From Gillisia sp. Hel_I_86 (GTDB taxonomy: Bacteria; Bacteroidota; Bacteroidia; Flavobacteriales; Flavobacteriaceae): a stretch of 64,000 nt of DNA. Below the pieces are notes generated by a model that was given only the letters and a program-made list of their open reading frames with translations, was not told the origin of the DNA and made no database searches. Location: assembly GCF_007827275.1 (NCBI RefSeq), contig NZ_VISE01000001.1, positions 2,294,001 to 2,358,000 of the forward strand, read 5' to 3'. The position numbers and the translations under genes were made by a program. This document shows positions 7,093 to 25,153 of the stretch, piece by piece; within the stretch, counting starts at the first letter, position 1, and every line of letters begins with the position of its first letter.

Positions 7093-7096
7093 CATT

Positions 7097-7561: not shown

Positions 7562-7572
7562 TATAAAAAGCA

Positions 7573-7815: not shown

Positions 7816-8234
7816 TTATGAAAATAGATATTCAAATAGTAAACGATATAGATACCACAAAGGTATACCAACAACTATCTCATCCAGAAAGCGGAGGTAT
7901 TTGTGTTTTTATAGGAAGTGTTCGTAATACTACTCAAAATAAAAAAGTTGAAGCTCTTGATTTTGAGACCTATGAAAAGATGGCCATTAAAGAAATGCAG
8001 GTTATAGCAGAGGAAGCTATTCGTAAATGGAAATTAAATAAAGTAATACTACACCACGCTCACGGAAAAAAAGAAGTAGAAGACCCTGTAGTTATGGTTG
8101 GCGCTTCGTCTGCACACCGAGATGCTTGTTTTGAAGCCTGCCGTTACCTTATAGACACACTTAAAGAGCGTGTTCCTATTTGGAAAAAGGAATTCTTTAC
8201 CAATAAAACTGTATGGGTATCTGCCCATCCATAA
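7812..8234 (+). CDS. moaE: Molybdopterin synthase catalytic subunit MoaE
   Basis: A 140-residue large subunit of molybdopterin synthase, which converts cyclic pyranopterin monophosphate to molybdopterin. Family motifs are GSVRNTTQ near 36, FETYEKMA near 55, HAHGKKEVED near 81 and the C-terminal VPIWKKE carrying the active-site lysine. Two start codons (7812 and 7818) are possible; the first overlaps moaD by 4 bases. The reading frame of the next gene can be extended back into this one, but that extension is not coding. Confidence 0.95.
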   Translation: MIMKIDIQIVNDIDTTKVYQQLSHPESGGICVFIGSVRNTTQNKKVEALDFETYEKMAIKEMQVIAEEAIRKWKLNKVILHHAHGKKEVEDPVVMVGASSAHRDACFEACRYLIDTLKERVPIWKKEFFTNKTVWVSAHP

Positions 8235-8277
8235 AGATGCTTATTTACGTACGCGTAATCTACAATACAATGAAATT

Positions 8278-8757
8278 ATGAGTCACAAATTATCACATAT
8301 AGATGAATCCGGAAATGCTGCAATGGTAGATGTTTCAGCTAAAGAAGCAACTACTCGAATTGCAATAGCATCTGGAAAGATCTCATTTCCTCCAAAAGTT
8401 TTTGAAACCTTGAAATCTCAAGATTTTTTAAATAAAAAAGGGAGTATCACTCAAACTGCCATTATTGCCGGCATCCAAGCCGTAAAACAAACGGCAAACC
8501 TAATTCCTTTATGCCATCAATTGCCCTTGTCTAAAATAAATATAGAGGTGACTCCGGTAGTAAATGCTTTAAATATTGTGTGTGAAGTAAAATGCAACGA
8601 ACGCACAGGTGTAGAAATGGAAGCCCTTACAGGTGTGAGTATATGTGCATTGACTATTTACGACATGTGTAAAGCACTGTCGCAAGATCTTAAGATTTCT
8701 GATATTCAACTTGAAAAGAAAGAAGGTGGGAAATCAAATTTTACTCGCCAAATTTAA
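8278..8757 (+). CDS. moaC: Cyclic pyranopterin monophosphate synthase MoaC
   Basis: About 159 residues, the normal MoaC length, starting from the ATG at 8278 with SHKLSHIDESG and MVDVS. MoaC converts 3',8-cyclo-GTP to cyclic pyranopterin monophosphate. Conserved parts seen are CHQLPLSK near 79, GVEMEALTGVS near 116 and a closing EGGKSNF. A longer frame opens at 8170 inside moaE but lacks family similarity, so I reject it. Its stop codon shares a base with the next gene's ATG. Confidence 0.95.
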   Translation: MSHKLSHIDESGNAAMVDVSAKEATTRIAIASGKISFPPKVFETLKSQDFLNKKGSITQTAIIAGIQAVKQTANLIPLCHQLPLSKINIEVTPVVNALNIVCEVKCNERTGVEMEALTGVSICALTIYDMCKALSQDLKISDIQLEKKEGGKSNFTRQI

Positions 8758-9833
8758 TGGAAAATGAACGATACATACGACAAACAATTTTAAAGGGCTT
8801 TGGATTAGAATCTCAAAAAGAATTAACCAACGCAAGTGTTTTAGTAGTAGGTGCTGGCGGTCTTGGAGTTCCTGTATTGCAATATTTAAATGCTATGGGA
8901 GTTGGCAAGATTGGTGTGATTGATAATGATGTTGTGAGCTTGAGTAACTTGCACAGGCAAGTTTTATATTCAGAAAAAGATATTGATAAATCTAAAATTG
9001 TATCTGCAATAGAAAAACTAAAAGCTCAAAATTCTAATACAGACTTAATAGGTTATGAAAGTTTTTTAACGAAGAACAATGCAATATCTATTATAGAGGA
9101 TTATGATTTGGTTGTAGATGCATCAGATAATTTTTCAACACGTTATTTAGTCAATGATGTTTGCGTGATGTTAGGGAAGCCTTTTATATATGGAGCCTTA
9201 CACGGTTTTGAAGGATATCTTAGTGTGTTTAATTATAAGGAAGGGCCAACGTATAGGTGTCTTTTTCCAACAATGCCAAAAGCTGAAGAGATCCCAAATT
9301 GCAACGAACAGGGTGTTCTAGGAGTAATTCCGGGTATTATTGGAAATTTGCAAGCTCTTGAAGCTGTAAAAATAATTACAGGGATGGGTAAAGTTCTTTC
9401 AAGGAAATTGCTCATTTTTAATGGACTTGAACAAGAATATCATAAATTCAATATTTGTAGTATCCCAAAAAATAAAATTATAACAGCATTACAAGAAAGT
9501 TATGAATTAGAATGTAATATTGATACTTCATCTGTAACTGCAAATACCTTCAGGGGGCTTTTAGATAGTAATGATCAGCTTCAATTAGTAGATGTGAGAA
9601 CAGAGGGAGAATATCAAGATTTTCATCTAGAACAAGCCATTAATCTTCCGTTAGATTCTTTAGACTTAAACTATAATTCTATTAACTATAACAAACCTGT
9701 TTATTTTATTTGCCAATCTGGAGTACGAAGTGTGAAAGCCATTCAAATCTTGAGAAAATATCAACCAAAAGCCACTTTAATCAATATTGAAGGAGGGTTA
9801 AATCAATTAAGAGACTATGCTTCTGAACATTAA
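8757..9833 (+). CDS. moeB: ThiF/MoeB-type adenylyltransferase fused to a rhodanese domain
   Basis: A 358-residue protein. Residues 1-240 form an E1-like ThiF domain: nucleotide loop VGAGGLGVPV near 32 and the metal aspartate region around IDNDVVSLSNLHRQ near 59. Residues 260-358 form a rhodanese with FICQSGVRS holding the persulfide cysteine. Such MoeZ/MOCS3-type fusions adenylate MoaD and transfer sulfur to it. It overlaps moaC by one base and ends the operon. The upstream cysteine desulfurase is a plausible sulfur source for the rhodanese cysteine. Confidence 0.92.
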   Translation: MENERYIRQTILKGFGLESQKELTNASVLVVGAGGLGVPVLQYLNAMGVGKIGVIDNDVVSLSNLHRQVLYSEKDIDKSKIVSAIEKLKAQNSNTDLIGYESFLTKNNAISIIEDYDLVVDASDNFSTRYLVNDVCVMLGKPFIYGALHGFEGYLSVFNYKEGPTYRCLFPTMPKAEEIPNCNEQGVLGVIPGIIGNLQALEAVKIITGMGKVLSRKLLIFNGLEQEYHKFNICSIPKNKIITALQESYELECNIDTSSVTANTFRGLLDSNDQLQLVDVRTEGEYQDFHLEQAINLPLDSLDLNYNSINYNKPVYFICQSGVRSVKAIQILRKYQPKATLINIEGGLNQLRDYASEH

Positions 9834-9839
9834 AAGATC

Positions 9840-10173
9840 GTTCCTTCTTTTTTCGGATTTTTTATTATAGCTACATTTTATTCTTCTGTTGGTTTTGGTG
9901 GAAGTTCCAGCTATTTAGCTTTATTGCCACTTTTTGCATTTTTTCTTTATTCGTTCTAATGCGCTTGTTGGCAATCTTTTAGTTGGTTCTGTAAATGCTT
10001 ATTTGTTCTAGAATAACGGACATTTTTCTATTAGAGATTTTTTGCTTTTTATAATTACCGGTAAAGCAATCCATGGAAAGCTTAAAACACGTGGAGGAAT
10101 GGATACTTTAGATAAATTTAAGGACCCATCCCAATACGGGAAAAATAGAAGTATGATCGCTATAGGAGGCTAG
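9840..10173 (+). pseudogene. Composite remnant: TauE/SafE-like transporter fragment joined to a MoaA C-terminus
   Basis: Translated forward, 9870-9945 gives SSVGFGGSSSYLALL, typical of the first segment of TauE/SafE sulfite/anion exporters. The frame then shifts by one base near 9945-9952 and continues as SNALVGNLLVGSVNAYLF, an in-frame stop at 10009, and HFSIRDFLLFIITG. From about 10060 the same frame changes character to GGMDTLDKFKDPSQYGKNR and ends SMIAIGG at a stop at 10171-10173. That last part matches the family-typical C-terminus of MoaA. A deletion apparently fused the front of an exporter gene to the tail of a second moaA. Not functional. Confidence 0.7.
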
Positions 10174-11049
10174 TTAATTTTGCCCTTTTTTAAATCCATA
10201 GGTATTTTGACGTATAAAATCTGTTGGGAATTCTTCATCACCCGGAAATCCTAATTCAATGGTTCCACTATCTTCCGGCACATAATTCGTTTTAAAAATA
10301 TAATCCCAAAGACTTAAACTAATTCCAAAATTCACTCCATATTTACCATCTGGTAAATCATATGCATGATGGTACAAATGCATTACTGGATTATTGATAA
10401 TATATTTTAGCGGTCCCCAAGTTATTTTGATATTAGAGTGGTTGATATGTCCAATAGTTATAGCAATAAAATGAACGATATATGCTTGCTCCGGCTCGAA
10501 ACCAAATAAAATCATTATTCCAAATGTTTTAAGCGGTTTGTACAAGATATTTTCCATCCAATGGTAACGTAAATGTGCTGCAAAGCCCATTTCTTTAACA
10601 CTGTGATGAACCTTATGATATTTCCAAAAGAAAGGATATTTATGCAGTAACGTATGTGTGAACCATTGCACAAAATCCAGAATAATAAAAAACACGAATA
10701 ACTGCAACAACATCGGCCATGCCGAAGGATCAAACAAGGCTAATGATTTTTCTGAAACACCTAGATCCTCAAAACCAAGCTGTAGTATTTTATAAAATCC
10801 ACTTATGGCGATAGAGAAGATAAAAAAGTTAAAAAACATATAGAAGCCATCTAACCAAAAATCCTTTCTGAAAATGGATTGCTCCTTACGCCAGGGAAAG
10901 ATCATTTCCAGGCTCCAAACAATAAGGGAAATAGCAATTAAGCCCCAAAAATAATTCGTATACCAAGGCACTTCAAATAATATCGATTTCCATGTCCAAT
11001 CTACCGTTCCGGTAAAAGCATTAAAAAATGCATCTAAATATTCATTCAT
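10174..11049 (-). CDS. Fatty acid hydroxylase / sterol desaturase superfamily membrane protein
   Basis: A 291-residue membrane protein with four to five hydrophobic segments and the histidine-rich di-iron motifs of this superfamily: HTLLH near 132, HKVHH near 145, then HLRYH, HINHS and a final HLYHH near 224. Members hydroxylate or desaturate lipids with O2. It lies 6 bases after the rhodanese lipoprotein gene and seems to be the last gene of the leftward sulfite-oxidation operon. Its substrate is unknown; its constant company with sulfur genes here is only an observation. The stop is back to back with the preceding pseudogene. Confidence 0.82.
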   Translation of the reverse strand: MNEYLDAFFNAFTGTVDWTWKSILFEVPWYTNYFWGLIAISLIVWSLEMIFPWRKEQSIFRKDFWLDGFYMFFNFFIFSIAISGFYKILQLGFEDLGVSEKSLALFDPSAWPMLLQLFVFFIILDFVQWFTHTLLHKYPFFWKYHKVHHSVKEMGFAAHLRYHWMENILYKPLKTFGIMILFGFEPEQAYIVHFIAITIGHINHSNIKITWGPLKYIINNPVMHLYHHAYDLPDGKYGVNFGISLSLWDYIFKTNYVPEDSGTIELGFPGDEEFPTDFIRQNTYGFKKGQN

Positions 11050-11055
11050 ATTTTA

Positions 11056-12027
11056 TTATTCTATTATTGTTGTTATACTATCTTGGTCAAATGATAAGTC
11101 GTCAAACTGACTCCATTCTGTCCAAGAACCATCGTAATTTTTCACATTTTTATAACCTAATATTTGCGTAAGTACAAATGTTGTATGCGCTGAGCGTACA
11201 CCACTATGACAATAAGCGATGATTTCATCATCCTTGGAAGCGCCAAGCTTATTATATATTTCAATTAAATCTTCTGTAGATTTCATTTTTTTATCACCAT
11301 TATAATTAACAGATTTAGCCCAATCTATAGATTTACTATTTGGTATTCTCCCTCCTTTTGCCGCACCTTCTTTTTGCCTTTTTCCGGAAAATTCATCGTC
11401 TGTTCGAGCATCTATTATAAATGTATTATTAGCTACTGCTTGTATCATTTTTTCTTTAGAAATTAAATATTTCATCGAAGGCGCATCGGTTAACTTAAAG
11501 TTTGACCTCTTTACTATAGGTGTTTCCGTAGAAATAGCACCATTTTTTTCTTTCCATGCTGTTATTCCTCCATGTAATAATCTCACCTTTGTAAAATCAT
11601 AATTTTGTAAGATCCACCATAATCTTGTAGAATCAACCAAGCCATTATCATCATAAATGATTATGGTATCCTTTGTGTTAATACCTAAACCACTAAATAG
11701 AGTCTCCATTTGTTTTTTTCCGGCCATCATGCCTTTATAAGGATAGGAGGCATCTTCAATATCTGTGCGCCAAATATTCATAGCACCTTCGATATGTTCG
11801 TTTGCATAGAATTCTGATTTTCTAAAATCCAAAATTTTGATGTTCGGTTCATTAGCGATTTTCAGCAACTCATCAACTTCGATCAAATAGTTAATTTTAC
11901 TATCATCTTCGTCACTAATATTTAGATTAGCTTCTTCATTTTTAGTAACCTCTACTTTATTTTTTTTCTCTTCCTTACAAGATGAAAATGCGAGCAAACA
12001 ACACAATAAACTAATTCTCCAGACCAT
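11056..12027 (-). CDS. Lipoprotein sulfurtransferase with two rhodanese domains
   Basis: A 323-residue protein with a short lipoprotein signal (lipobox AFSSC, Cys17), so it is anchored on the outside of a membrane. Two rhodanese domains follow (about 48-160 and 185-310). The second has the active-site loop AYCHSGVRS with Cys273; the first has aspartates (IIYDDNG) where a cysteine would be and is inactive, as is normal for the thiosulfate/3-mercaptopyruvate sulfurtransferase family. It overlaps the cytochrome gene by 17 bases. It could move sulfane sulfur in the periplasm, releasing sulfite for the dehydrogenase encoded in the same operon. Confidence 0.88.
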   Translation of the reverse strand: MVWRISLLCCLLAFSSCKEEKKNKVEVTKNEEANLNISDEDDSKINYLIEVDELLKIANEPNIKILDFRKSEFYANEHIEGAMNIWRTDIEDASYPYKGMMAGKKQMETLFSGLGINTKDTIIIYDDNGLVDSTRLWWILQNYDFTKVRLLHGGITAWKEKNGAISTETPIVKRSNFKLTDAPSMKYLISKEKMIQAVANNTFIIDARTDDEFSGKRQKEGAAKGGRIPNSKSIDWAKSVNYNGDKKMKSTEDLIEIYNKLGASKDDEIIAYCHSGVRSAHTTFVLTQILGYKNVKNYDGSWTEWSQFDDLSFDQDSITTIIE

Positions 12028-12484
12028 ACCATTCTATATTTGTTAAATTTTCACGTCTTCCTTTTTCCGTAACTGGATAATTAGTAACAAGATAATTCAC
12101 TATTATTTCTTGATTAGCACCTAAATCCCATAGGTTTTGAGTTTCCTGCATCCATTTAATAGTTTCATTCCACCGCTCTGCGCTCATTTTATTTTGTGTG
12201 ACCAATTTGGCCGAATGGCAATTGGTACAATTATTAACAACCGCCATTAAACCTACCCCATCAACCAGTCCTGTACGAACATGGATTCCATTTTCTATTA
12301 GGTTCTCGTCTATCTCTTCCGGAGTAACAACTAAAGCTTCTGTATTACTTTTAAAGGCCGAAAAATTCGGGTCGTTAATATAATATATTGTTGCCCCACC
12401 TGCTATTAAAAATATGCTGAAGGCTAAAATCATTAAATGATACACCTTCTTCGCGTATTTTTTAAATTCCTCTTCTTTAGTCAT
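12011..12484 (-). CDS. Membrane-anchored monohaem cytochrome c
   Basis: A 157-residue protein with one N-terminal membrane segment (about 17-36) and a single haem-attachment site CTNCH at 86-90; Met100 is a candidate axial ligand. It begins directly after the sulfite dehydrogenase stop, so the two are co-transcribed. In sulfite:cytochrome c oxidoreductases (SorAB, SoxCD) a small cytochrome accepts the electrons, and this is the likely role here. The sequence around the haem is short and not family-diagnostic beyond cytochrome c. Confidence 0.85.
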   Translation of the reverse strand: MTKEEEFKKYAKKVYHLMILAFSIFLIAGGATIYYINDPNFSAFKSNTEALVVTPEEIDENLIENGIHVRTGLVDGVGLMAVVNNCTNCHSAKLVTQNKMSAERWNETIKWMQETQNLWDLGANQEIIVNYLVTNYPVTEKGRRENLTNIEWYGLEN

Positions 12485-13705
12485 TTATGTTACTTTGATA
12501 GCAATTCTATGACAGGCATTGTTTAAATAACCTTTTGGATTCCAGCCGGGTAACAACATTGGTTGGGCTACACCTTGAGTGTCGGTTGCTTTTGCCCAAA
12601 CCTCATAGTAGCCTTTTTTAGGAAAATCTATGGATGCCGAGAAATGTTGCCAAGCCAAACGGTTTACTGGATCCTCTATTTGGCACTCTCTCCAGATTGC
12701 CCCAAAATCTATGGAATATTCCATTTTTGAAACCTCTAATTCTCCTGCCCAAGCGTGGCCTCTAATTTTTAAGGATGTGCCATCTTTTAAAACCGCACCA
12801 GATTTAGGATATGTGATCAATGATTTTACAGGCATAGATTCTATAATGCACATGTCTTCATCTTTAACCTTTTCTCCCGGTGCCACAGGTTCGCATGGCA
12901 CACGGTAGGCTGTCCCCATCATTTTAGTGCCATCGTGTATTTTGTTTCTAATGCTTATTCGATTAATCCATTTCCCCGAAACAGATGCTGGCCAACCACC
13001 TGCTACTAATCGTAATGGGTATCCGTGCGCAAGAGGGATTTCCTTTCCATTCATTTTGAACGCTAATAATGTTTCGTCTTGCAGGGATTTCACCATTGGA
13101 GCTCCTCTAGAAATTGGTTCTTTTTTTGGGTCTCTGCTTAAGTGTTCATCTACTGCATGATATCCTGTATAAACAGCATTATTTTTTATTCCTGCATCTT
13201 CTAAAACGTCACGTAGGCGTATACCGGTCCATGTTGCACAATGCACTGCACCAACTGTCCACTGGTTTCCTTTTGCTGGGGGATTAAATTCGCTTCGTCC
13301 ATTTCCGCCACATTCCAATGTTAATTGGTAGGTGTGATGCTCGAATTTTGATTTCAATTCTTCCAGCGTATATGTTTTTTGGTTCACTACAGATTCTCCA
13401 TCTATAGTAAGAGTCCATTTTTTTGCATCAATTGCTTCTGGAATTAGCCCATTATTTCTAATGAACATTGCAGAATTCGGTGTAATCTTATCGTCCAGTA
13501 AATGGGCTTGTGCTTCAATATTCCATGGCTTATCGTTAAGCACGAGCATTTCCTTGTTCTTATTAAACAATTTGAAGGGATCTGGATCTTGTAGCGCTAA
13601 TAGATTATAATCTTCTAATAAATTGGATCCATAAACGATTTCAGCACCAATGAGAGTGGCCAAAGTACTTAAGGTTGTTTTTTTTACGAAATCTCTTCTT
13701 TTCAA
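12485..13705 (-). CDS. Sulfite dehydrogenase / sulfite oxidase family molybdoenzyme (SorA/SoxC-like)
   Basis: A 406-residue molybdoenzyme. A twin-arginine signal (KRRDFVKK at 2-9 and a hydrophobic stretch to about 27) sends it folded to the periplasm. The Oxidored_molyb domain (about 75-260) has the molybdenum-ligand Cys132 in LECGGNGRSEF; the C-terminal Mo-co dimerisation domain spans about 275-405. The family oxidises sulfite to sulfate, or sulfane sulfur in SoxCD. It leads a leftward operon with a cytochrome c, a rhodanese lipoprotein and a hydroxylase-like protein. It needs the plain molybdopterin cofactor made by the nearby moa/moe genes. SorA or SoxC assignment is open. Confidence 0.92.
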   Translation of the reverse strand: MKRRDFVKKTTLSTLATLIGAEIVYGSNLLEDYNLLALQDPDPFKLFNKNKEMLVLNDKPWNIEAQAHLLDDKITPNSAMFIRNNGLIPEAIDAKKWTLTIDGESVVNQKTYTLEELKSKFEHHTYQLTLECGGNGRSEFNPPAKGNQWTVGAVHCATWTGIRLRDVLEDAGIKNNAVYTGYHAVDEHLSRDPKKEPISRGAPMVKSLQDETLLAFKMNGKEIPLAHGYPLRLVAGGWPASVSGKWINRISIRNKIHDGTKMMGTAYRVPCEPVAPGEKVKDEDMCIIESMPVKSLITYPKSGAVLKDGTSLKIRGHAWAGELEVSKMEYSIDFGAIWRECQIEDPVNRLAWQHFSASIDFPKKGYYEVWAKATDTQGVAQPMLLPGWNPKGYLNNACHRIAIKVT

Positions 13706-13851
13706 GACAATAAAAATTATAATATTCCTAATATAAAAATCACAATATACAATGTGCCATATTTATCTACTGTAACAAATGTTACATTTAAACTTCTCTG
13801 AGAAGGTTAATTTTAAAATTTAAAAATCTAACTTAATAAAAATCTAACTTA

Positions 13852-15462
13852 ATGAGATATACCAAATTCTTTATTCCAGTTCTAGGAATAGCTTCAGTTT
13901 TAAGTTTAAGCTGTAATTCAACCAAAAAGTCAGCTACTTTGGATAAACTAAATCCCCAAAAAGTTGCTTCAATATCTATACTTCATACTAATGATATGCA
14001 TGGTTCTTATATGCCTTTTGAAACCAATTTAGGCAACGCTACAGCGCAAACTGGAGATTCCATAGACAATTACATGAAATTTGAGCGTAAAGCAAAAATT
14101 GGTGGATTCGAATATCTTGCAAGTGCTATAAAGTCTATAAGAAAAAACAAAGGTGATGACAGCGTAATATTATTGGATGGTGGAGATACTTTTAGTGACG
14201 ACCAATTAGGCAACCTTACAAAAGGGGAGGCGATGATTAAAATGATGAATGAAGTGAATTATGATCTCATGGTTTTGGGAAATCACGATTTTGACTACGG
14301 TCTTGAAAGAACAAATGAACTGCAGCAACTTGCTAACTTCCCTATGCGAGCAGCAAATATAATCGTTAAAGAAACAGGGAAACCAATTTTTGGAGAGCCT
14401 TATGTGGTTATAAATAAGCAAGGTGTCAATATAGCTATTCTTGCCTTAAGCTATAGAAATACACCTTTAACTGGAAATTCTAAAAACATTGAAGGTCTGG
14501 AATTTGGAATTGGTGCTGAAGCTGTCAAAGAATACCTTCCTATGCTCACTGAAAAAGCTGATATCATTGTGTTACTGTCCCATGAAGGAATGGCGGTAGA
14601 TAAAATAATTGCTGAAGAAATAGAAGGCGTAGATCTTATTGTAGGTGCGCATAGTCATGATGTTATTTCCCCACCCTTAAAAATAAACAACACTTATATA
14701 GTGCAAGCGTTATCGGATGTAGCAATACTAGGAGAAACAGAAATACAAATAAGTAATAATAAAATTATAGATATTAATGCAAATTATCATTACTTATGGC
14801 ACGATGAAATGTCTCCCGATGTGCAAATGCAGGAAATGATAAATCAACTAAGAAAACCATATTTATCTAAATTAGAGGAAAAAATCACAAAAACAAATTC
14901 CATAATTGGAAGGCAATATAAATCTGAAAGTCCTTTTGATAAAGTGGTAACCAGCATGATGATGGACAAACTTAACGTAGATGCTGCATTTTTACCGGGA
15001 GTTGGATATGGGATTTCATTAGAAGGAGATATCACTTCTGAAGATGTATTCAAATTACTGCCACATCCAGCAAAAATTGTAACCTTAGAAATGACAGGAG
15101 ATCAAATTAGAAGAACCCTGGAACAAACTGCGATTAATATTAAACCTACAGATAAAATGAATACCGTAGGTGGGCTAATCCAATCTTCTGGCATCCAGTA
15201 TAACTTAAACTTTAATAATCCAGTAGGGCAAAGAATATCTGACATTAAAATAAAAGGTGAAAATTTAGATCTTGCAAAAACCTATAAAATTGCTACTCAT
15301 ACCGGGATGCTTGGTGGGATTCATAACTATGAGGAATTTGGAAAAGGTTTAAATATTAATAAAACGAATATTGTACTAACAGAATTTGTATTGGAAAATC
15401 TTAGAGAATTAAAAGAACTCAGCTTTCCTGAAAGAATGGGAGAGGTGATCCTTAATAAATAA
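13852..15462 (+). CDS. UshA-like 5'-nucleotidase / metallophosphatase lipoprotein
   Basis: A 536-residue lipoprotein (lipid-attachment Cys21). The metallophosphatase domain shows HTNDMHG near 46, LLDGGDTF, LGNHDFDYG with the NHD active-site motif, and GAHSHD near 268. The 5_nucleotid_C domain occupies about 335-500. The family hydrolyses nucleotides or nucleotide sugars outside the membrane. SoxB is a distant relative, but this protein keeps the NHD motif of true nucleotidases, unlike the SoxB-like protein at 16185. It is 23-50 bases upstream of the DsrE-like gene and probably co-transcribed with it. Confidence 0.85.
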   Translation: MRYTKFFIPVLGIASVLSLSCNSTKKSATLDKLNPQKVASISILHTNDMHGSYMPFETNLGNATAQTGDSIDNYMKFERKAKIGGFEYLASAIKSIRKNKGDDSVILLDGGDTFSDDQLGNLTKGEAMIKMMNEVNYDLMVLGNHDFDYGLERTNELQQLANFPMRAANIIVKETGKPIFGEPYVVINKQGVNIAILALSYRNTPLTGNSKNIEGLEFGIGAEAVKEYLPMLTEKADIIVLLSHEGMAVDKIIAEEIEGVDLIVGAHSHDVISPPLKINNTYIVQALSDVAILGETEIQISNNKIIDINANYHYLWHDEMSPDVQMQEMINQLRKPYLSKLEEKITKTNSIIGRQYKSESPFDKVVTSMMMDKLNVDAAFLPGVGYGISLEGDITSEDVFKLLPHPAKIVTLEMTGDQIRRTLEQTAINIKPTDKMNTVGGLIQSSGIQYNLNFNNPVGQRISDIKIKGENLDLAKTYKIATHTGMLGGIHNYEEFGKGLNINKTNIVLTEFVLENLRELKELSFPERMGEVILNK

Positions 15463-15512
15463 TTTCTTCCTTGAATATCTAACTAATGAATTTTAATTTT
15501 AAATACATAGAC

Positions 15513-16040
15513 ATGAAAAGCATAATAAGTTTAGTTTTAATATCAATGTTTAGTTTCCAAATGCAAGCACAAGAGTGGCAAACTTCAAAAATAGAAGGTT
15601 ATGGGAAAATTAAATATTTTGAAGATGCAGCGGAGCAACCAGACACTACCCTAAATTATAAATTGGTTTTTGATATTAAAGATGGAAAAGAAAAAGAGGG
15701 AGTAAATGTAGGTTTGTTGAAAATTGCTCGTGCCCTTAATATGTTAGAATCAGGAAAAATTTCATCTGAAAAAATTGATATCGTGGCAGTGGTCCATGGA
15801 GAAGCGACCGATTTGGTCCTTTCTAATGAAAAGTATCAAGAGAAATATAAAAAGTCAAACCCAAACATAGAGTTATTGAAGTTATTAAAAGAAAATGGGG
15901 TGAAAATTTTTGTTTGTGGACAAGCTACAGCTGCCAGAAACATAGCGCAGGAAGATATGAATGAATCTATTGAGTTGGCGCTTTCAGCTTTATCGGTTTT
16001 GTCAAACTATCAGCTTAGAGGGTATGCTTTGATCCCTTAA
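15513..16040 (+). CDS. Exported DsrE/DsrF-like protein
   Basis: About 175 residues. I choose the ATG at 15513 because it gives a clean signal peptide (KSIISLVLISMFSFQMQAQ); an in-frame ATG at 15486 only adds nine residues in front of it. The mature part has the DsrE layout: VAVVHGEA near 95 and FVCGQATAARN near 140, with one cysteine at the position used for sulfur relay in DsrE/TusD proteins. Secreted members occur beside Sox-type genes. Its context (sulfite dehydrogenase, rhodanese, SoxB-like protein) suggests sulfur binding in the periplasm. Confidence 0.82.
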   Translation: MKSIISLVLISMFSFQMQAQEWQTSKIEGYGKIKYFEDAAEQPDTTLNYKLVFDIKDGKEKEGVNVGLLKIARALNMLESGKISSEKIDIVAVVHGEATDLVLSNEKYQEKYKKSNPNIELLKLLKENGVKIFVCGQATAARNIAQEDMNESIELALSALSVLSNYQLRGYALIP

Positions 16041-16065
16041 TATTCGATTTAGTGAGATAAGCATA

Positions 16066-16106
16066 ATAACTATAAAGAGGAGCAAATAGCTCCTCTTTAT
16101 AGTTAT
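16066..16106. terminator. Bidirectional terminator between convergent genes
   Basis: A perfect 18-bp stem (16066-16083 with 16089-16106) with a 5-base loop, A/T-rich on both sides. It lies between the DsrE-like gene on the plus strand and the SoxB-like gene on the minus strand and can stop both. Confidence 0.9.
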
Positions 16107-16184
16107 ATAATATTAAAATTTTAACGTAGTTACTCTACTTTGTTAATCTGTAAATCGTTAAATAAATCACTCTATCCCCGCTAA

Positions 16185-17612
16185 TTAAACCAACCTGTAG
16201 CTTCCTGTTTTGTTTGGTGTAAAATCTGGGTATTTATTTAAATAGTCCTTCATCGCCTCCACAGCATTTTTATCGTGGTTCTTTCTGTTTTTACCATATT
16301 TACTGGCTACACCTTGCGTTGTAACAAAACCCACTTTGTAAATTTTATTAAAATCAATGTGTGACCCTTTATAGTATATTTCCTGAATGCGATGACCTTT
16401 AGGATTTTCAATTCGCATATTCACTTGCAATCCTAAACATCGTTTTACATAGCCTCCCATTTGTCCTAATGGATTACAGCAAAAGGTACGCTCCAAATTT
16501 TCCTCTAACAATTCCTTAATTTCCGTCCCCGTAAGCTCTACGGTTGAAACGGGTGGATTCATTGGGGCAATGTTATATAAATTATTCTCGGTAATATTTC
16601 CTTTTGGAATTGGAGCGCCGTAACGCCATCCATTCGAAAAGGCAATATCCGTATTTGTACTGTGGATAATTGCCCTAAGCAGTAATTCGTCCAATGTTGA
16701 ATTTATAGTATTGTAACGATGTAAAATTTCGGTCGTACTACCTATGGCAACAGTGCTCATTTCCTGATATGGGTTTAAAATATCTTGAACCATAGAATCT
16801 ACTTCAGTACTTTTTGGTAAGGAAGCATCAACTTTAACAAGTTCGTAATTATAAGCTTCAATCTTTTTATCTTCCACATCAATGATAAATCTGCCCAAAA
16901 ACGAACCGTGGCAACCGCATTGTATTATACGTGTACCATTTACCTCAATGGCTTTATAAATTCTGTTATGGGTATGAGCGCTCAGGCAAATATCAATACC
17001 TTCCACTTTTTTCAGGAGTTCAACATCCTGGGGAAATCCATTATGGGAAAGTAAGATTATCATATCCGACCCATTGGCTTTTAGCTCTTTTATATGTCCT
17101 GGAATTTCATCCAAACCAGAAGTGAACTTTAAGCCCTTACTCATTTTCTCGGGCATCACTTTGTCCACAATCATTGCACTAATACCAATCACCCCAATTT
17201 TAAGTCCTGCTTTTTCGAAAATTGCAGTGGGTAGCAAAAAGTTTGACCCATCTTCTGAAAACACATTACAGCCCAACACTGGAAAATCCAACAAACTGTC
17301 GATTTCTTTTAATCGATCGGGACCATATGCAAAATCCCAATGACCTACAAGCGCATCAAGTTTTAAAGCATTTAAAATGGGCACCACGGCCTTGCCGCTA
17401 GAATCCACCATTGGTTTGGTTCCATGTAGGGTATCTCCCCCATCAAAAAATAAAGTATTAGGATTTTCTTTACGAAGTTCCTCCATGAAGCCGGCGATAT
17501 GTGCATAACCACCAGCACTCTCCACCACTTCCCCAGTTTCATTATAAAATAGTTCGGGATGTGGAGCAATGTAACCGTGCACATCGTTTATAAAACAAAT
17601 ATTTAATTTCAT
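16185..17612 (-). CDS. SoxB-like metallophosphatase (putative thiosulfohydrolase)
   Basis: A 475-residue protein of the 5'-nucleotidase/SoxB superfamily: INDVHG at 8-13, FFDGGDTLHG near 55, LLSHNG, LSAHTH and a C-terminal 5_nucleotid_C domain with an extended insert (CNPLGQMGGYVKR). The usual NHD/NHE site is replaced by GHWDF, which I know as a mark of SoxB proteins. SoxB removes sulfate from protein-bound thiosulfate. Unlike classical SoxB, this copy has no signal peptide at the annotated start. The start codon lies one base from the end of an IS element, so the native upstream sequence may be lost and the real N-terminus longer. Confidence 0.72.
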   Translation of the reverse strand: MKLNICFINDVHGYIAPHPELFYNETGEVVESAGGYAHIAGFMEELRKENPNTLFFDGGDTLHGTKPMVDSSGKAVVPILNALKLDALVGHWDFAYGPDRLKEIDSLLDFPVLGCNVFSEDGSNFLLPTAIFEKAGLKIGVIGISAMIVDKVMPEKMSKGLKFTSGLDEIPGHIKELKANGSDMIILLSHNGFPQDVELLKKVEGIDICLSAHTHNRIYKAIEVNGTRIIQCGCHGSFLGRFIIDVEDKKIEAYNYELVKVDASLPKSTEVDSMVQDILNPYQEMSTVAIGSTTEILHRYNTINSTLDELLLRAIIHSTNTDIAFSNGWRYGAPIPKGNITENNLYNIAPMNPPVSTVELTGTEIKELLEENLERTFCCNPLGQMGGYVKRCLGLQVNMRIENPKGHRIQEIYYKGSHIDFNKIYKVGFVTTQGVASKYGKNRKNHDKNAVEAMKDYLNKYPDFTPNKTGSYRLV

Positions 17613-17613
17613 A

Positions 17614-18565
17614 GGTTATGTTTTAGAATAATGTGGAAATTTATTATTTATACATCGATCAAATTTACGACAAATGGATTTACGCAATATTTTAAACGAT
17701 CTGGATCGAGCCGAGAAGATCGAGCTGGCGCAGCTTCTCCATCGGGGGCTCAACGTCCCCGACCTAGGGCTTGTGGGCAGGGACATCGGCAACGACCGCC
17801 CGGTGTATTGCCCTCACTGCGAAGACTCGGACATATACGGTCACGGGCACTACAAGGGGCGCAGGCGCTACAAGTGCAGGTCTTGCCACAAGACCTTCAA
17901 CGACTTTACCGGTACTGCCGTTGACGGCATAAAGAAGCTGGAAAAGTTCCAAGAATACCTGTTGTTGGTGGTGGAGAGCGACGACAAGCAGTTAGACATC
18001 AACGACAAGGGGCGGCGGAACCTTGGAAGGGATCCTACAAGAGGCCCAGCGACAGGGAAGCCAAAAGGGGCGTGAGCAACGACAAGGTCTCGGTGGTGGT
18101 CGCCTCGGGCAGGAACGGCGGGAGGACCATGCTTGTGGCAAAGATCGGCAGGATAGATGCGGAAAGCGTCCAGAACACGATAGGTGGGCTCATCGCACCG
18201 GGCAACGTACTGTGTTCCGATTCCCATCCCTCGATAATCAAATGGGCAAGGGACAACGAACTCGAGCACCATACCTTTGTGGCGTCGCGCCAACATGTAA
18301 AGGACAGGTGCTATCACGTACAGCACGTCAATTCCCGAGACAACCGCTATGAGAGATGGGTCAAGAAGTTTTATGGGGTTTCGACCAAGTACCTTCGGGG
18401 CTACTTGAACTGGTTTGTCTTTCTGGAAAAGATAAAGAAATCCGCCCTACAGGGCTTGGAACTTGCAAGGTGCGTCGCCAAGAACATCGGTGCAATAAAA
18501 ATCTATAGCTCTATCGAAAGGAAGTATGAGAAATTGATAGTTCCACAACTTTCTAAAAGATAACC
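17614..18565 (+). mobile_element. IS1595-family (ISXO2-like) insertion sequence
   Basis: A 952-bp element bounded by terminal inverted repeats at 17614-17638 and 18541-18565 that match at 21 of 25 positions, each beginning GGTTAT. It is clearly GC-richer than its surroundings. The left end is one base from the start codon of the SoxB-like gene; the right end interrupts an integrase gene. The eight flanking bases do not match (ATTTCATA versus ATTTTTGT), so there is no clean target duplication. That points to a later deletion or recombination next to the IS rather than simple insertion. Confidence 0.85.
17674..18563 (+). pseudogene. IS1595-family transposase, frameshifted
   Basis: The first frame (17674-18075) has the zinc ribbon CPHC...CRSC (residues 49-75) and runs to DDKQLDINDKG, a likely catalytic aspartate. 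The match then moves to another frame in which 18072-18563 carries VSNDKVSVVV, CSDSHPS (second aspartate) and HVQHVNSRDN, the third catalytic region of the ISXO2 type. The two frames total about 296 residues, and the shift falls near 18010-18030. I see no clear helix-turn-helix between zinc ribbon and catalytic domain, so part of it may also be deleted. The element is probably immobile by itself. Confidence 0.8.
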
Positions 18566-18878
18566 ATTTTTGTTTGACTTGCTTAGTTGTGAGTTCTATC
18601 TTAGAATCGAAATATATATCATTGGCCTCAGTTAGCTTTTTCATCAGATAATTATTCAGTTTTTTAGAATTAGGATGAGTACGTTTAACTTTGCCTGCAT
18701 CTTTATCCCAATCCTTTTCCAATACATATTGTCCGATAAATCTATAGCAAGTTTTGTAGTTTTCGCTAATTCTCAAAGAGAGGGTCAGTGCCATCTTTTC
18801 GTACTTTATTTTTCCTTCGAACAATTTTGATACTTGCCATAGTATTATCTTTATATGTAGACTATAAAGATAATACAA
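18566..18878 (-). pseudogene. Tyrosine recombinase (integrase), N-terminal fragment cut by the IS
   Basis: About 104 residues before the IS boundary. LSLRISENYKTCYRF, GQYVLEKDWDK, HPNSKKLNN and LTEANDIYFDSK are typical of the arm-type DNA-binding N-terminus of Bacteroidota phage/ICE integrases. The reading continues up to TTKQVKQK and then runs into the IS end; the core-binding and catalytic domains are absent. It lies 130 bases from a partial tRNA gene, the expected place for an island integrase. Confidence 0.78.
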
Positions 18879-19007
18879 TATTAAAAAAAAGGGGTACAGA
18901 ATAATTTGATTTTGGATGGATTTATTTAATATTAAATGAAATTAAAAACCTTGTGAACAGTTGATTTTAAAGGGAATTGGGTTAATCCATATACTCACAT
19001 ATTTAAG
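18879..19007. other. Non-coding stretch between integrase remnant and tRNA fragment
   Basis: AT-rich sequence of about 130 bases, the normal distance between an integrase gene and its att site. It probably held the integrase promoter. No hairpin stands out. Confidence 0.4.
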
Positions 19008-19049
19008 CTCATAACCCGAAGGTCACTGGTTCGAGTCCAGTTCCCGCTA
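19008..19049 (+). other. 3' part of a tRNA-Met (CAT) gene, probable attR site
   Basis: The segment begins exactly at the anticodon loop (CTCATAA) and continues with the 3' anticodon stem, variable loop, a T arm that pairs (ACTGG/CCAGT around TTCGAGT), the 3' acceptor strand TCCCGCT and discriminator A. The sequence before it cannot form the 5' anticodon stem, D arm or acceptor strand, so this is no functional tRNA. Integrases often use the 3' half of a tRNA as core site and leave such a duplicate at the far end of the island. Confidence 0.82.
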
Positions 19050-19052
19050 CTA

Positions 19053-19089
19053 GGAAAACCCTTTCAGGAAACTGAGAGGGTTTTTCGTT
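19053..19089 (+). terminator. Rho-independent terminator behind the tRNA fragment
   Basis: A stem of about 13 bp (AAAACCCTTTCAG with CTGAGAGGGTTTT, one wobble pair) closed by a GAAA loop and followed by T-rich sequence. It sits directly behind the tRNA 3' end and is most simply the original terminator of the tRNA gene. Confidence 0.82.
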
Positions 19090-19435
19090 TAAGGGGTCAT
19101 GGCTTCCCAGATGCTTAGGGCAGTTTTAGCATCTTGAAGGATAGGGCGTCCTCTAAATAAGTAGCTTTTCCTGTTTCTATTAGGAGATAATTTGACCATT
19201 TTTCATGATTTAAGATAACTTGCAAGATAGATTTCTACCGATGTAAATAGGGATCCTCTTGAACTCTTCTACCTATGCTTAAAGACTTGAAGAAACCAAT
19301 CCCTCCTAGTTTTGGAAAAGGGGAGGGGCGGCTTGTTTAATAGCTCTAAACTCCTGAGCTAGTTACTACAAAGTGTTAGGTTCACTTCAAGCTTATGGCC
19401 TCTTTTAAATAGAGTGCTTTAATGATTCTACTTTA
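19090..19435. other. Non-coding stretch downstream of the tRNA fragment
   Basis: About 345 bases without a credible gene on either strand, ending at the stop of the leftward efflux operon. I see no tRNA, repeat or strong terminator; the sequence may be decayed. Confidence 0.4.
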
Positions 19436-20857
19436 TTATTTCCATCCGCCACCAAGGGCCTCATATAAATCTACGATAGACACTAATTGTTGTAGTTTGC
19501 TATCTACAATATTAAGTTCGGCATTTAAAGCACTTTCTCTCGCAGTCAACAAATCTAAATAGTTTGCGTAACCGTTTTTAAGCAACTCTTCAGAGTTCGC
19601 TTCGGCAATACGTAAAGCTTCAACTTCATTTTTTCTAAACTCAAATTTTTTAGTTTCAGATTCATATGAAAATAATGCATTAGACACCTCGCTTCCAGCA
19701 ATTAGTAATATCTTTTTAAATTGAAGTAAAGCCTCTTCTTGTTTTGCTATAGCAACCTCCTTTTGTGTTCTAAGTGCACGTTTATTTAATAATGGTTGTG
19801 TTAAACCTCCTGCAATGGTAGCAAATAACGAGTTTGCATTTAATAATTTATCAAGTTCTAAACTTTGGAATCCACCAGCAGCTGTTAATTTTAACGATGG
19901 ATACAAATTGCTTTTAGCCACATTGGTTAGCTCAAAAGATTGAATCAAATTATACTCTGATGCCATTACATCTGGCCTATTGCCAAGTAAAATTGCAGGT
20001 ACACCAAGTATGATGTCTTGTTCAACCTTTTGAATATCTAAACTACTTCTTTCAAAATATTGTGGCACTTTTCCTAATAGAATACTTAGCGTGTTTTCTG
20101 TTTCAAAAATGGCAGTTTCAATATCTACTTGTAAAGCTTTTGCATTATTGAATTGTGCAATATTTTGCTCTACCGCAACTTGGGTAACCTGGCCAGCATC
20201 TTTTAATGCTTTTATAGTCTCTACACTACTTTCCCTAGTTACAATGGTTTCCTTAGTCACTTCTAATTGTGCATCTAAAGCCAATAAATTGTAATATGTA
20301 TTTGCAATGCTTGAAATTAATTGCGTTTTTACTGCTTGATGTGCTGCGGCACTTTGTAAGTAAGCAGCTTGAGTAGCTCTTTTATTACTACGTATTTTTC
20401 CCCAGATATCTGCTTCCCAAGACAAACTCCCGGAAAGCTCATATTCGTCTATAGAGGTAGATCTAAGAAATGCGCCAAATTGACTGTTTTTTGACCATAT
20501 TTGATGGGTAATTGAAGTATTGGCATTTATACTGGGCAAATACCCTGCTTTTCCTTGTTTTGCATAAGCTTCTGCAGCTATCATTTGCTGAATTGCAATA
20601 CGAACATCCATATTATTTTGCAGACCTTCTTCAATATAGTGTTGAAGGTATTGATCTTTAAATAATGTTTTCCAAGATATTTCTGCAATAGAAACACTGT
20701 CTGTGGGCAAATTATCGGTTCTGTAAAGTGCTTCTGTTTGAATTTCTAATTCTGGTCTAATATAATCTTGTGCTACAAAACAACTCTGTAATGTCAATAC
20801 CACCACTAGCACAAGGCCACCTTTACTTAAATTTCTACGTTTTACATATAATTTCAT
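19436..20857 (-). CDS. Outer membrane efflux lipoprotein (TolC/NodT family)
   Basis: A 473-residue outer-membrane channel of RND pumps. The signal ends in a lipobox (LQSC), typical of the NodT/OprM branch. Two OEP repeats are visible, with helical segments such as TQLISSIANTYYNLLALDAQ near 179 and a matching one near 390. The C-terminus ends LYEALGGGWK, the usual ending for this family. It is the last gene of the operon, 5 bases behind the pump gene. Confidence 0.92.
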   Translation of the reverse strand: MKLYVKRRNLSKGGLVLVVVLTLQSCFVAQDYIRPELEIQTEALYRTDNLPTDSVSIAEISWKTLFKDQYLQHYIEEGLQNNMDVRIAIQQMIAAEAYAKQGKAGYLPSINANTSITHQIWSKNSQFGAFLRSTSIDEYELSGSLSWEADIWGKIRSNKRATQAAYLQSAAAHQAVKTQLISSIANTYYNLLALDAQLEVTKETIVTRESSVETIKALKDAGQVTQVAVEQNIAQFNNAKALQVDIETAIFETENTLSILLGKVPQYFERSSLDIQKVEQDIILGVPAILLGNRPDVMASEYNLIQSFELTNVAKSNLYPSLKLTAAGGFQSLELDKLLNANSLFATIAGGLTQPLLNKRALRTQKEVAIAKQEEALLQFKKILLIAGSEVSNALFSYESETKKFEFRKNEVEALRIAEANSEELLKNGYANYLDLLTARESALNAELNIVDSKLQQLVSIVDLYEALGGGWK

Positions 20858-20862
20858 TGTTC

Positions 20863-23800
20863 TTAATCTTCAATTGTTTGTACTGTTGGTTTACTTGAAA
20901 CTTTTTCCTGTAACCACTGAAATAATATAAACAGAACAGGAATTACAAAGACTCCTAATAGGGTCCCAATGAGCATTCCGCCTACGGCACCTGTACCAAT
21001 AGAGTTGTTTCCTTCCGAGCCCACACCCTTTGCTAACACCAAGGGCATTAAACCTAAAATAAAGGCAAATGAGGTCATTAAAATAGGACGTAATCGTGAT
21101 TTTGCTCCGTGAATTGCTGCATCAACAATGCTTTCTCCATTTTTCCGCCTTTGTAATGCAAACTCCACTATAAGGATGGCATTTTTAGCGAGCAACCCAA
21201 TAAGCATGATTAAGGCAATTTGGAAATATATGTTGTTTTCCAAGCCTAAAAATTTAGTGCTTATGTAGGCTCCAAAAACTCCAAACGGAAGCGAAAAGAT
21301 TACTGCAAACGGCAATAAATAACTTTCATATTGCGCACTAAGCAGGAAATACACAAATAAAATACTCAATATAAAAATGAAGGTGGTTTGGTTTCCTGCA
21401 TTTACTTCTTCCCGTGTTAAACCAGAATAAGCTACTGTATAATTACTTGGTAATTTTGCTACTTCCTCTTCAATAACCCTAATTGCATCACCTGTACTAA
21501 ACCCATCATTGGTCGCGCCGGAGATCATGGTGGAGTTAAATAGGTTGAAACGTGTTACCGATTGTGGACCGTATACTCGTTCTAATTTCACGAACTGGGT
21601 AATGGGCGTCATTTCCCCAGAATCTGTTCTTACATACATGCTATTTAAATCTTCCACATCTGCTCTGTCATTAGGTAATGCTTGAATATACACTCTAAAC
21701 TGTTTTCCAAATCGAGAAAAATCTGAAGCATAAATACCCCCAATATATCCCTGTAGGGTAGAAAATATGCTGTTAATAGGAACTCCTTTTTCTTTCGCTA
21801 AAGGCACATTGACTTCCATTTCATATTGGGGATAGTTGGTGTTGAAAGAAGACTGGGCGTATTTAATTTCGGGATGTTGCATTAATGCCATTGTAAATTC
21901 CTTATTCGCTTTATCCAAGTCGGTGAATTCGCCTCCAAATTTGTCTAATAAATTTATTTCGAAACCAGAGGAGTTACCAAAACCACGAATACTAGGAGGG
22001 GAAAAGAATATGATATTTGCATTAGCCATGGTTGACACAGCACCAAATAATTTTCCGGTAATAGCTTGTGCAGACAAGGATGGATCTTCACGTTCGTCCC
22101 AATTTTCAAGTTTTATAATTCCAAAACTATAATTACTACCTGCACCACTAATTAAACTTCTACCTTTAATGAAATTTACAGCTTCAATACCGTTAATGCC
22201 ATTTATTTTACCGTATAATTCTCTAGAAACAGCATCTGTCCTATCTAAGGAAGCACCTGCTGGCAGTTCTATATTTGCAAAAATAATCCCTCGATCTTCA
22301 TTAGGAACAAATCCTGTAGGTGTAGTGTTTGATGCCCAGAAAATTCCAACTACAGCTAAAATTAACAACAAAACAGGCACCCATTTTCTTTTGTATAAAA
22401 ACTGAAGTGATTTTCCATATTTGTCTACTGTAGCATTAAAGCCGCGATTAAAAAGAGTGTAAAAACGCTTTAGTGGGCTTTTACCTTTTACCTCTTCATC
22501 TTCCTTATGAGGTTTTAATAATAAGGCACATAATGCAGGACTTAAGGTTAACGCGTTTACTGCCGAAATGAGAATGGCAATTATTAAGGTCACACCAAAC
22601 TGTTCGTAAAAAACGCCCGTAGGTCCCGTCACGAATGTTACTGGAATAAACACTGCTGCCATTACCAAGGTAATAGATATAATGGCTCCAGAAATTTCAT
22701 TCATGGCTGTAAGCGTTGCTGTTTTAGCATTTTTTTCGCCTTCATCCAGTTTAGCATGAACTGCCTCTACCACCACAATGGCATCATCTACGACAATACC
22801 AATTGCGAGCACTAGCGCAAATAGTGTTAACAGGTTAATAGAATACCCAAAAACATTTAAGAAAAAGAAGGTGCCAATAATGGAAACCGGAACCGCAATA
22901 GCTGGAATTAATGTAGAACGGAAATCTTGCAGGAAAATAAACACTACCAAAAACACTAATAAAAAGGCTTCTAATAAAGTGGTAATTACTTTTTCTATAG
23001 AGGCGTTTAAGAACAAACTGGTATCATACGGCACAAAAATACTAAGCCCCTCTGGCAAATCTCTTTCCACCGATTCTAGGGTAGTTTTAATGTTTTCGAT
23101 TATTTCCTGAGCATTGGAACCTTTGGTTTGAAAAATCCCCATAAATACTGCAGGTTTACCCATACTCATTGCATTAGAGGAATAGGATTGGGCATCTAAT
23201 TCTATGGTTGCCACATCATTTAGGCGAAGAAATTCACCATTTCCTAATGCTTTAATAACAATATCTCCATATTGTTTTTCTTCTTTAAAGCGTCCACTAT
23301 AAGTCAATGTATAAGAAAATGCTTCTCCATTATTTTGTCCTAAGGATCCTGCTGCTGCTTCTAAATTTTGTTCTTTTAATGCTGCTGAAATATCTGAAGG
23401 GATTAAATTATAAGCTGCTAATTTTTCCGGTTTCAGCCAAATACGCATTGCATAATCTTGTTGTGAAAATACACTAACATCTCCAACTCCACTAATACGT
23501 TGCATCGCCGGAATAACATTTATTTTTAAGTAATTCTGAATAAATGTAGCATCATAATCTTCATTATCAGTATACATCGATATGAACATTAAAGCACTCG
23601 TTTCTTGCTTTTGTGTAGTTACCCCAGTTTGGATCACCTCCTGTGGCAATAATGGATTTGCCCTAGCTACACGATTTTGAACGTTTACTGCAGCAATATC
23701 TGCATCCATTTCCTGATTAAAATACACTGTAATTTCTGCGGTTCCATTGTTCGAGGCCGTAGAAGTAATGTAGGTCATTCCTTCTGCCCCGTTAATTTGC

Positions 23801-24000
23801 TCTTCAATAGGAATTATAACACTTTCCAGCACAGTTTCTGCATTCGCTCCAGGATACGATGCTGTTACCTTAATTGTTGGCGGTGCAATATCTGGATATT
23901 CTTCTATGGGAAGGCTTGATATACTTATAACACCAAGTACAACTATGATAATAGAGATTACCGTTGAAAGAACTGGTCTTTCAATAAATGTTTTTAACAT
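20863..24000 (-). CDS. RND multidrug efflux pump, inner membrane subunit (AcrB/HAE1 family)
   Basis: A 1045-residue protein of normal length for the HAE1 family, with twelve membrane segments and two large periplasmic loops. The start FIERPVLSTVISIIIV, the proton-relay pair in GIVVDDAIVVVEAV (near 405) and the final helices with GLLAKNAILIVEFA are characteristic. It is a proton-driven exporter of amphipathic compounds. Its partners are the adaptor gene 22 bases upstream and the TolC-like gene downstream. HAE1 rather than heavy-metal (CusA) type is supported by the VVDDAI motif. Confidence 0.96.
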   Translation of the reverse strand: MLKTFIERPVLSTVISIIIVVLGVISISSLPIEEYPDIAPPTIKVTASYPGANAETVLESVIIPIEEQINGAEGMTYITSTASNNGTAEITVYFNQEMDADIAAVNVQNRVARANPLLPQEVIQTGVTTQKQETSALMFISMYTDNEDYDATFIQNYLKINVIPAMQRISGVGDVSVFSQQDYAMRIWLKPEKLAAYNLIPSDISAALKEQNLEAAAGSLGQNNGEAFSYTLTYSGRFKEEKQYGDIVIKALGNGEFLRLNDVATIELDAQSYSSNAMSMGKPAVFMGIFQTKGSNAQEIIENIKTTLESVERDLPEGLSIFVPYDTSLFLNASIEKVITTLLEAFLLVFLVVFIFLQDFRSTLIPAIAVPVSIIGTFFFLNVFGYSINLLTLFALVLAIGIVVDDAIVVVEAVHAKLDEGEKNAKTATLTAMNEISGAIISITLVMAAVFIPVTFVTGPTGVFYEQFGVTLIIAILISAVNALTLSPALCALLLKPHKEDEEVKGKSPLKRFYTLFNRGFNATVDKYGKSLQFLYKRKWVPVLLLILAVVGIFWASNTTPTGFVPNEDRGIIFANIELPAGASLDRTDAVSRELYGKINGINGIEAVNFIKGRSLISGAGSNYSFGIIKLENWDEREDPSLSAQAITGKLFGAVSTMANANIIFFSPPSIRGFGNSSGFEINLLDKFGGEFTDLDKANKEFTMALMQHPEIKYAQSSFNTNYPQYEMEVNVPLAKEKGVPINSIFSTLQGYIGGIYASDFSRFGKQFRVYIQALPNDRADVEDLNSMYVRTDSGEMTPITQFVKLERVYGPQSVTRFNLFNSTMISGATNDGFSTGDAIRVIEEEVAKLPSNYTVAYSGLTREEVNAGNQTTFIFILSILFVYFLLSAQYESYLLPFAVIFSLPFGVFGAYISTKFLGLENNIYFQIALIMLIGLLAKNAILIVEFALQRRKNGESIVDAAIHGAKSRLRPILMTSFAFILGLMPLVLAKGVGSEGNNSIGTGAVGGMLIGTLLGVFVIPVLFILFQWLQEKVSSKPTVQTIED

Positions 24001-24022
24001 AACGACTATGTTTGTGGGTTAT

Positions 24023-25153
24023 CTAGTTTTTGAACAAAGTTGCTACAGGTTTAATAGCGTCTTCAAAAGAGGTCTCTTGTGGTGAGATTAACATGCCATT
24101 CCTTAGTTTTCCTACCCCCGAAACCACAATTTTGTCTTTAGCATCTACTCCAGATTCTACAACATATAAATTGTCTACGGTGGCTTTAACTTTTATAATG
24201 GAAGTTGCAACTTTATTGTCTTCCCCTAAAATAAACATCATGATATTTCCTTGTTGTTCATAGGTTGCTTCTTGTGGAATTACAGTTACATTTTTATATA
24301 CTGTTGGAATTTGAATTTTACCACTATTCCCATTGGTTAATAGTTGGTTTGGATTATCAAAAACCGCTCTTAAACTAACAGTCCCTGTGCTTTTGCTAAC
24401 TTGTCCGGTACTGGTTTCAATTTTGCCTTTTTCCGAATATGCAGTGCCGTTAGCTAAAATTAAACTGATTTCAGAATAATTAGCCAGCTTTTGCTTTAGG
24501 TTTTCTCCTTCTGCATTTTGTAAAAAGTCTAAATATTGAGTTTCATTTAAACTAAAAAAGGCATATACCTTACTAATATCACTAACGGTGGTTAATGATT
24601 TTTGGTCATTTGGGCTAACTAATGCGCCTTCCCTATAATTAATTGCTCCAACATATCCATCTACAGGACTTTTTATAGTTCCGTAGCCAATATTTGCAGA
24701 GACACTACTATAATTAGCTTTGGCCTGCGCTAAATTAGCTTTTGCGGTTTCTAACTGGACAGGGCTAATAATATTTTTTTCTACTAATGGTATTAATTTA
24801 TTTACCTCTACTTGCGCAACATCCACACGCGCTTGTGCAGCTCCTGCATCTTGATTTAAAGACTGTGTTTCTAATTTAAATAACACTTGTCCTTTACGTA
24901 CTTTTTGACCCTCGTCTACTAATACTTTCTGAATATATCCTGAAGTTTTAGCTCGAACATCGCTGTTTATTACACCCTCGATTGTGGTTGGGTATTCCTG
25001 AAAACCTGTTACCGTTTTCTTTTGTATTTGAGCTACTGGAAAAGGTGCAGGCGGTGCTTCGGCAACGGGTTTGTTTTCTTCATTGGTTCCACAACCAAGA
25101 ATAGCTAAGAACAAACCCAATGATAGTGCTGTATATAGTTTATTATATTTCAT
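24023..25153 (-). CDS. RND efflux periplasmic adaptor (AcrA/MexA family) lipoprotein
   Basis: A 376-residue adaptor. The lipobox AILGC puts the lipidated cysteine near residue 21. A barrel-sandwich lipoyl half follows (RAKTSGYIQKVLVDEGQ), then a short helical hairpin with ARVDVAQVEV and LETAKANLAQAKA, the second lipoyl half (GYVGAINYREGALV) and beta-barrel domains. It links the pump with the outer-membrane channel. It is second in the operon, 11 bases after the regulator. Confidence 0.94.
   Translation of the reverse strand: MKYNKLYTALSLGLFLAILGCGTNEENKPVAEAPPAPFPVAQIQKKTVTGFQEYPTTIEGVINSDVRAKTSGYIQKVLVDEGQKVRKGQVLFKLETQSLNQDAGAAQARVDVAQVEVNKLIPLVEKNIISPVQLETAKANLAQAKANYSSVSANIGYGTIKSPVDGYVGAINYREGALVSPNDQKSLTTVSDISKVYAFFSLNETQYLDFLQNAEGENLKQKLANYSEISLILANGTAYSEKGKIETSTGQVSKSTGTVSLRAVFDNPNQLLTNGNSGKIQIPTVYKNVTVIPQEATYEQQGNIMMFILGEDNKVATSIIKVKATVDNLYVVESGVDAKDKIVVSGVGKLRNGMLISPQETSFEDAIKPVATLFKN

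Follow-up and report, generated by a model that had tools for sequence, protein, structure and literature searches.

The 45-nt sequence CTCATAACCCGAAGGTCACTGGTTCGAGTCCAGTTCCCGCTACTA, found on the + strand at positions 19008–19052 of the 64,000-nt stretch analysed here (the window), represents, with a probability of about 0.9, the right attachment site of a genomic island that a tyrosine integrase placed in an initiator tRNA-Met gene, at its anticodon loop, and that forms part of a tandem array. The mechanism behind such a scar is ordinary and its kind, the tRNA-targeted island, is known; the interest lies in the cargo, the array and the breadth of the integrase family. The window corresponds to G000:C1:2294001–2358000 of the source genome (G000; 4,245,106 bases in a single contig), and genome coordinates are given below for features outside it.

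A whole-genome pattern search with the 45-nt core retrieved four exact occurrences, all on the + strand, at genome positions 2219251, 2236751 (hereafter f1), 2313008 (f2, the copy in the window) and 2476038 (f4); the reversed control pattern gave none in the genome. A degenerate fifth copy (f3) was recognized by sequence alignment at 2361692. Among the exact copies, the first is the only one within a complete tRNA, the tRNA-Met(CAT) called by ARAGORN at G000:C1:2219220–2219293, 93.8 kb to the left of the scar, which carries the core at its 3' end. Counted along the tRNA, the repeat extends from position 32, in the anticodon loop, to 2 nt past the tRNA end. This tRNA shows a 1:72 mismatch and GGG/CCC anticodon-stem pairs, both of which are hallmarks of initiator tRNAs, and f2 can be read as the displaced 3' part (attR type) of such a gene. 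No tRNA was called by ARAGORN inside the window, and an Rfam scan of positions 17400–20400 gave nothing above the gathering score. The first-pass annotation, which had described a tRNA 3' fragment lacking its 5' half, was therefore right in this respect, and the gene at 2219220–2219293 is the complete tRNA-Met, ending in the identical core, that it proposed to look for leftwards. The terminator that it placed behind the fragment also stands as a terminator-like hairpin (about 19053–19086, + strand), which according to the alignment recurs behind f3 and in the relatives G003 and G014.

The N-terminal remnant (arm-binding domain) of an integrase occupies positions 18566–18842 on the - strand (PF17293, E 3.5e-12). 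In tblastn it matched residues 1–92 of the 443-aa integrases of relatives with 76–90% identity, and since this homology falls in two frames, the remnant is frameshifted near 18780. Its ATG lies at 18842, 165 nt from the tRNA core; an integrase N-terminus does exist to the left of the scar, as had been annotated, but its start is about 165 nt away instead of 130 bases and it reads on the - strand. The other end of the remnant (18566) abuts an IS1595-family insertion sequence at 17614–18565 (+ strand), identified by blastn and by its transposase, encoded in two overlapping frames (PF12762, E 5e-11, and a weak PF12760 match). The C-terminal half of the integrase was not found by tblastn over 2200–2500 kb of the genome. 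A single copy of the arm-type repeat GGTACAGAATA is retained at f2 (18893–18903, + strand); relatives have a tandem pair, and the repeat is of the same type as that of the left end at f1.

Two islands can be delimited between the complete tRNA and the scar. Island A (2219296–2236750; 17.5 kb) lies between the tRNA and f1, contains an intact integrase (2235384–2236589; PF00589/PF13102/PF17293) and shows the ACAACAT arm type at both of its ends, the tRNA and f1. Island left ends have in common a terminator plus tandem GGTACAGAATA or GGTACAACATA repeats, and this full signature is present to the right of f1; 162 nt to the left of f1 there is also an intact integrase. The arm type ACAGAATA is shared by the right side of f1 and the left side of f2. 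From these shared arm types and from the geometry, the tRNA would pair with f1, and f1 with f2, as island ends. The second unit, island B (2236796–2313007; 76.2 kb), includes positions 1–19007 of the window, and the frameshifted remnant is its only integrase of this kind. Because this integrase is frameshifted and truncated by IS1595, island B would be mobile only with help in trans. Since none of the relatives was found to carry precisely island B at tRNA-Met, the f1–f2 unit is delimited by arm type and geometry. An island reaching leftwards from the scar had been predicted from the window, and the complete tRNA and the integrase and arm repeat placed left of the scar, as in relatives, agree with that; its left edge, however, is f1 and not the whole tRNA. 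The suggestion that this island might include the sulfur and molybdenum genes also held, with window positions 1–19007 inside island B.

In the mechanism proposed for this arrangement, each incoming element would supply a new 3' copy that completes the tRNA, so that the previous 3' part comes to lie at the distal end of the insert, and repeated insertion at one site would give a tandem array. The array would then read as complete tRNA, island A, f1, island B, f2, an older 48.6-kb insert, the decayed f3 and the native flank. We infer both that integrase-mediated recombination made the insert and the order of the insertions.

This layout is that of the islands catalogued in Islander, a compilation of tRNA-gene genomic islands (PMC4383910), which share an intact tRNA, a displaced 3' fragment that lies downstream and is oriented alike, a tyrosine integrase between them, crossover at the anticodon loop (subsite A) and, in some cases, a tandem array at one tRNA; 4 arrays of three or more were recorded among 3919 islands. 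The tRNA and its cognate fragments lie here in the required order and orientation, and the lengths of 17.5 kb and 76.2 kb fall within the 2–200 kb that Islander accepts. By a further criterion of ours, outside the Islander filters, the inserted DNA was absent from close relatives or located elsewhere in them. The case differs from the Islander islands in the four displaced copies behind one tRNA and in the integrase remnant of island B, which the Islander integrase filter might reject. Relatives of the same genus are syntenic with G000 upstream of the tRNA and variable downstream of it. The GC content of the islands (34.4–37.3%) differs little from that of the upstream side (38.3%), and no PF03432 relaxase was detected in the array; two are present elsewhere in the genome.

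The same arrangement was found at many loci. Six of these integrases were aligned and used to scan named genomes, and 80 loci were kept out of 400 integrase relatives, mostly from Flavobacteriaceae. Of the 79 usable loci, 77 have a tRNA 3' half upstream of the integrase, compared with 9 of 790 random control windows from the same loci; no fragment was detectable in the other two, L186 and L187. The distance from the tRNA 3' half to the integrase start was 156–175 nt in nearly all cases (139 in L188). Tandem arm-type (GTAC) repeats occurred in 66 of the 79 loci and in 5 of the 790 control windows. The targets were mostly tRNA-Met, with two tRNA-Leu(CAA)-like cases; the tRNA library was small (20 sequences taken from the loci themselves), so that the exact isoacceptor of the weaker matches is uncertain. 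Five of the relatives, G004, G008, G009, G010 and G014, contain a second core with an intact - strand integrase that starts 160–172 nt to its left. Many flavobacterial islands thus have ends that are marked by one integrase family, in a way that is simple to search for.

The DNA to the right of the scar (19053–64000 of the window) is probably also inserted. The native flank was expected to adjoin the fragment, but this is not so: the gene at 2361996–2362409, which is the first longer gene to the right of f3 and which sits close behind the tRNA locus in G004, G008, G009 and G014, is found only behind the degenerate copy at 2361692. The native flank would therefore begin at f3, 48.7 kb beyond the scar, and an older insertion most likely accounts for the DNA between 19053 (genome 2313053) and genome 2361691. 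Positions 19100–24100 match relatives at 64–80% identity, in scattered places. In G014 the terminator still adjoins an eroded core. The terminator behind f2 matches that of G003, a relative in which the tRNA copy is single; f2 may thus have been the native edge at an earlier time, before a rearrangement on its right side. The genes located to the right of the tRNA in G003:C31 sit at G000:C1:499250–507640, so a breakpoint of a chromosome rearrangement probably lies near f3.

Island A encodes a [NiFe]-hydrogenase together with hypABCDEF-type genes. Over residues 5–515, the large subunit scored 679 bits against the structures 7utd/7uus, and the next family reached 216 bits; by bit score, the criterion used for assignment to group 2a, it is closest to Huc among the solved hydrogenases. 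Mycobacterium smegmatis Huc, whose structure is PDB 7utd, is a group 2a [NiFe]-hydrogenase. The match to Huc is nearly full length, with the difference that the island A version, for which H2 uptake is predicted, comes from a flavobacterium, where it belongs to a tRNA-targeted island. In G139, which belongs to another genus, the same tRNA is followed immediately by the hydrogenase block (DNA identity 75–92%), and a second core comes 43 kb on, with an integrase 161 nt from it. The block is a mosaic: its large subunit and that of G139 are 100% identical, but the hypE–hypF side has only about 75% DNA identity.

The cargo of island B is predicted to function in the oxidation of CO and sulfur compounds. 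Window positions 1–10063 hold part of a form I CO dehydrogenase/molybdenum cofactor (Moco) cassette (the coxM end and mocA-like, mobAB-like, nifS-like and xdhC-like genes, along with the Moco genes moaA, moeA, moaD, moaE, moaC and moeB), which extends from about 2285.2 to 2304.06 kb of the genome, with coxL and coxS just to the left of the window. CoxL scored 1196 bits against TIGR02416 (cut-off 991) and carries the motif AYRCSFR, in agreement with the form I signature AYxCSFR; CoxE-like VWA and AAA accessory proteins accompany it. MoaA and MoaC exceeded their cut-offs, and the other Moco proteins stayed below the equivalog cut-offs. These features are shared with the known form I CO dehydrogenase (CoxSML), but here the genes, of predicted activity, are accompanied by a set of Moco genes and lie within a sulfur island. 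The sulfur block (10064–17613) encodes a SorA/SoxC-like sulfite dehydrogenase, rhodanese-like, haem-motif and DsrE-like proteins and two SoxB-like proteins. The SorA/SoxC-like and SoxB-like names come from NCBIfam matches below the equivalog cut-offs and the remaining ones from sequence reading, as do those of the metal-efflux-type proteins of island B. With 295 and 317 bits against a cut-off of 550, the two SoxB-like proteins are described as SoxB-like only, and the block is not assigned to the Sox system; on reading the island sequences by eye, no SoxXYZA proteins were recognized.

Gene order in relatives had been proposed as a check on the sulfur/Moco block, and the block proved to be non-syntenic. 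Positions 1–8094 had a long match in one of 15 congeners (G015, 99%), and positions 10063–17600 matched other places in several of them, G008 (90%) and G006 (85%), with parts in G015, G005 and G004. The sulfur cargo of G008 is bounded by a complete tRNA-Leu(CAA) (550005–550087) and, near 495.6 kb, by the 3' fragment of this tRNA (G008:C2:495.6–550.1 kb), on an island that carries an integrase of the same family and is devoid of the CO cassette. In the same context in G008 and G006 the CO/Moco cassette is missing, with 2 kb of other DNA in its place, and it is also missing from the shorter arrangement of G005; the cassette would therefore be either a nested insertion in G000 or a loss in the relatives. 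The IS1595 copy of the window (genome 2311614–2312565) has an inverted, 98% identical copy at genome 2261345–2262316 (blastn), and a by-eye check of the four flanks revealed no clear target-site duplications. In G008 and G006 the IS is lacking and 2311613 is joined to about 2261.3 kb, so the segment enclosed by the two copies, that is, window positions 1–17613 and leftwards to genome 2262317, is most likely inverted in G000 relative to these two genomes.

Other origins were considered for the scar and for its cargo. It is very improbable that the region is a single 93.8-kb island from the complete tRNA to f2, with f1 as an internal scar carried along. All core copies have the same orientation, the insertions are undatable from sequence and the f1–f2 stretch is without an intact integrase of the tRNA-scar family, all of which would suit one island; against it, f1 has both an intact integrase and a complete left-end signature, and the arm types pair the tRNA with f1 and f1 with f2. 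Fragments of tRNA genes do arise in genomes for other reasons, but a chance tRNA-like stretch or a pseudogene unconnected with integration has almost no probability here, given the exact 45-nt identity, the integrase remnant at a conserved distance, the arm repeat and the same layout in many relatives. A chance match was rejected outright on the four exact repeats and the zero count of the reversed pattern.

That insertion sequences or homologous recombination brought in the sulfur/Moco genes, with no part played by tRNA integration, is unlikely on the whole. In its favour, IS1595 copies border 2262.3–2311.6 kb, with the intervening segment inverted, and the CO cassette, which is enclosed by the sulfur block, is missing from that context in G008 and G006; the entry of this cassette itself may well have been of such a kind. 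The wider sulfur cargo, in contrast, is common to the array and the G008 tRNA-Leu island, its order is consistent once the inversion is undone, and a related integrase stands at the same end of both islands, which argues for tRNA-targeted integration.

Form I CoxL was detected in 7 of 149 genomes of the family and the hydrogenase in 8 of 149. Judged by coordinates, the CO dehydrogenase was not seen beside tRNA-Met in G033, G064, G088, G140 and G142, the five other form I CoxL genomes with core positions. Enzymes of aerobic CO and H2 oxidation are known from some marine Bacteroidota (PMC10305171), and the presence of CO and H2 cassettes as separate islands at one tRNA gene offers a concrete route to their patchy distribution in the family, a view to which G139, with its hydrogenase block at the same tRNA, adds. 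No paper bringing tRNA-Met, islands and integrases together for flavobacteria or Bacteroidetes was found in a search of mainly openly accessible literature. As a tentative proposal, which we hold to be possible rather than likely, a flavobacterial integrase family acting mainly at the tRNA-Met anticodon loop might shuttle H2, CO and reduced-sulfur cassettes, so that marine flavobacteria would acquire or shed trace-gas oxidation in the form of islands that can be stacked at one chromosomal site.

The remaining exact copy, f4 (2476038), consists of the core followed by an island-type left end, with no matching integrase or arm repeats to its left; a different integrase is located 2 kb from it.
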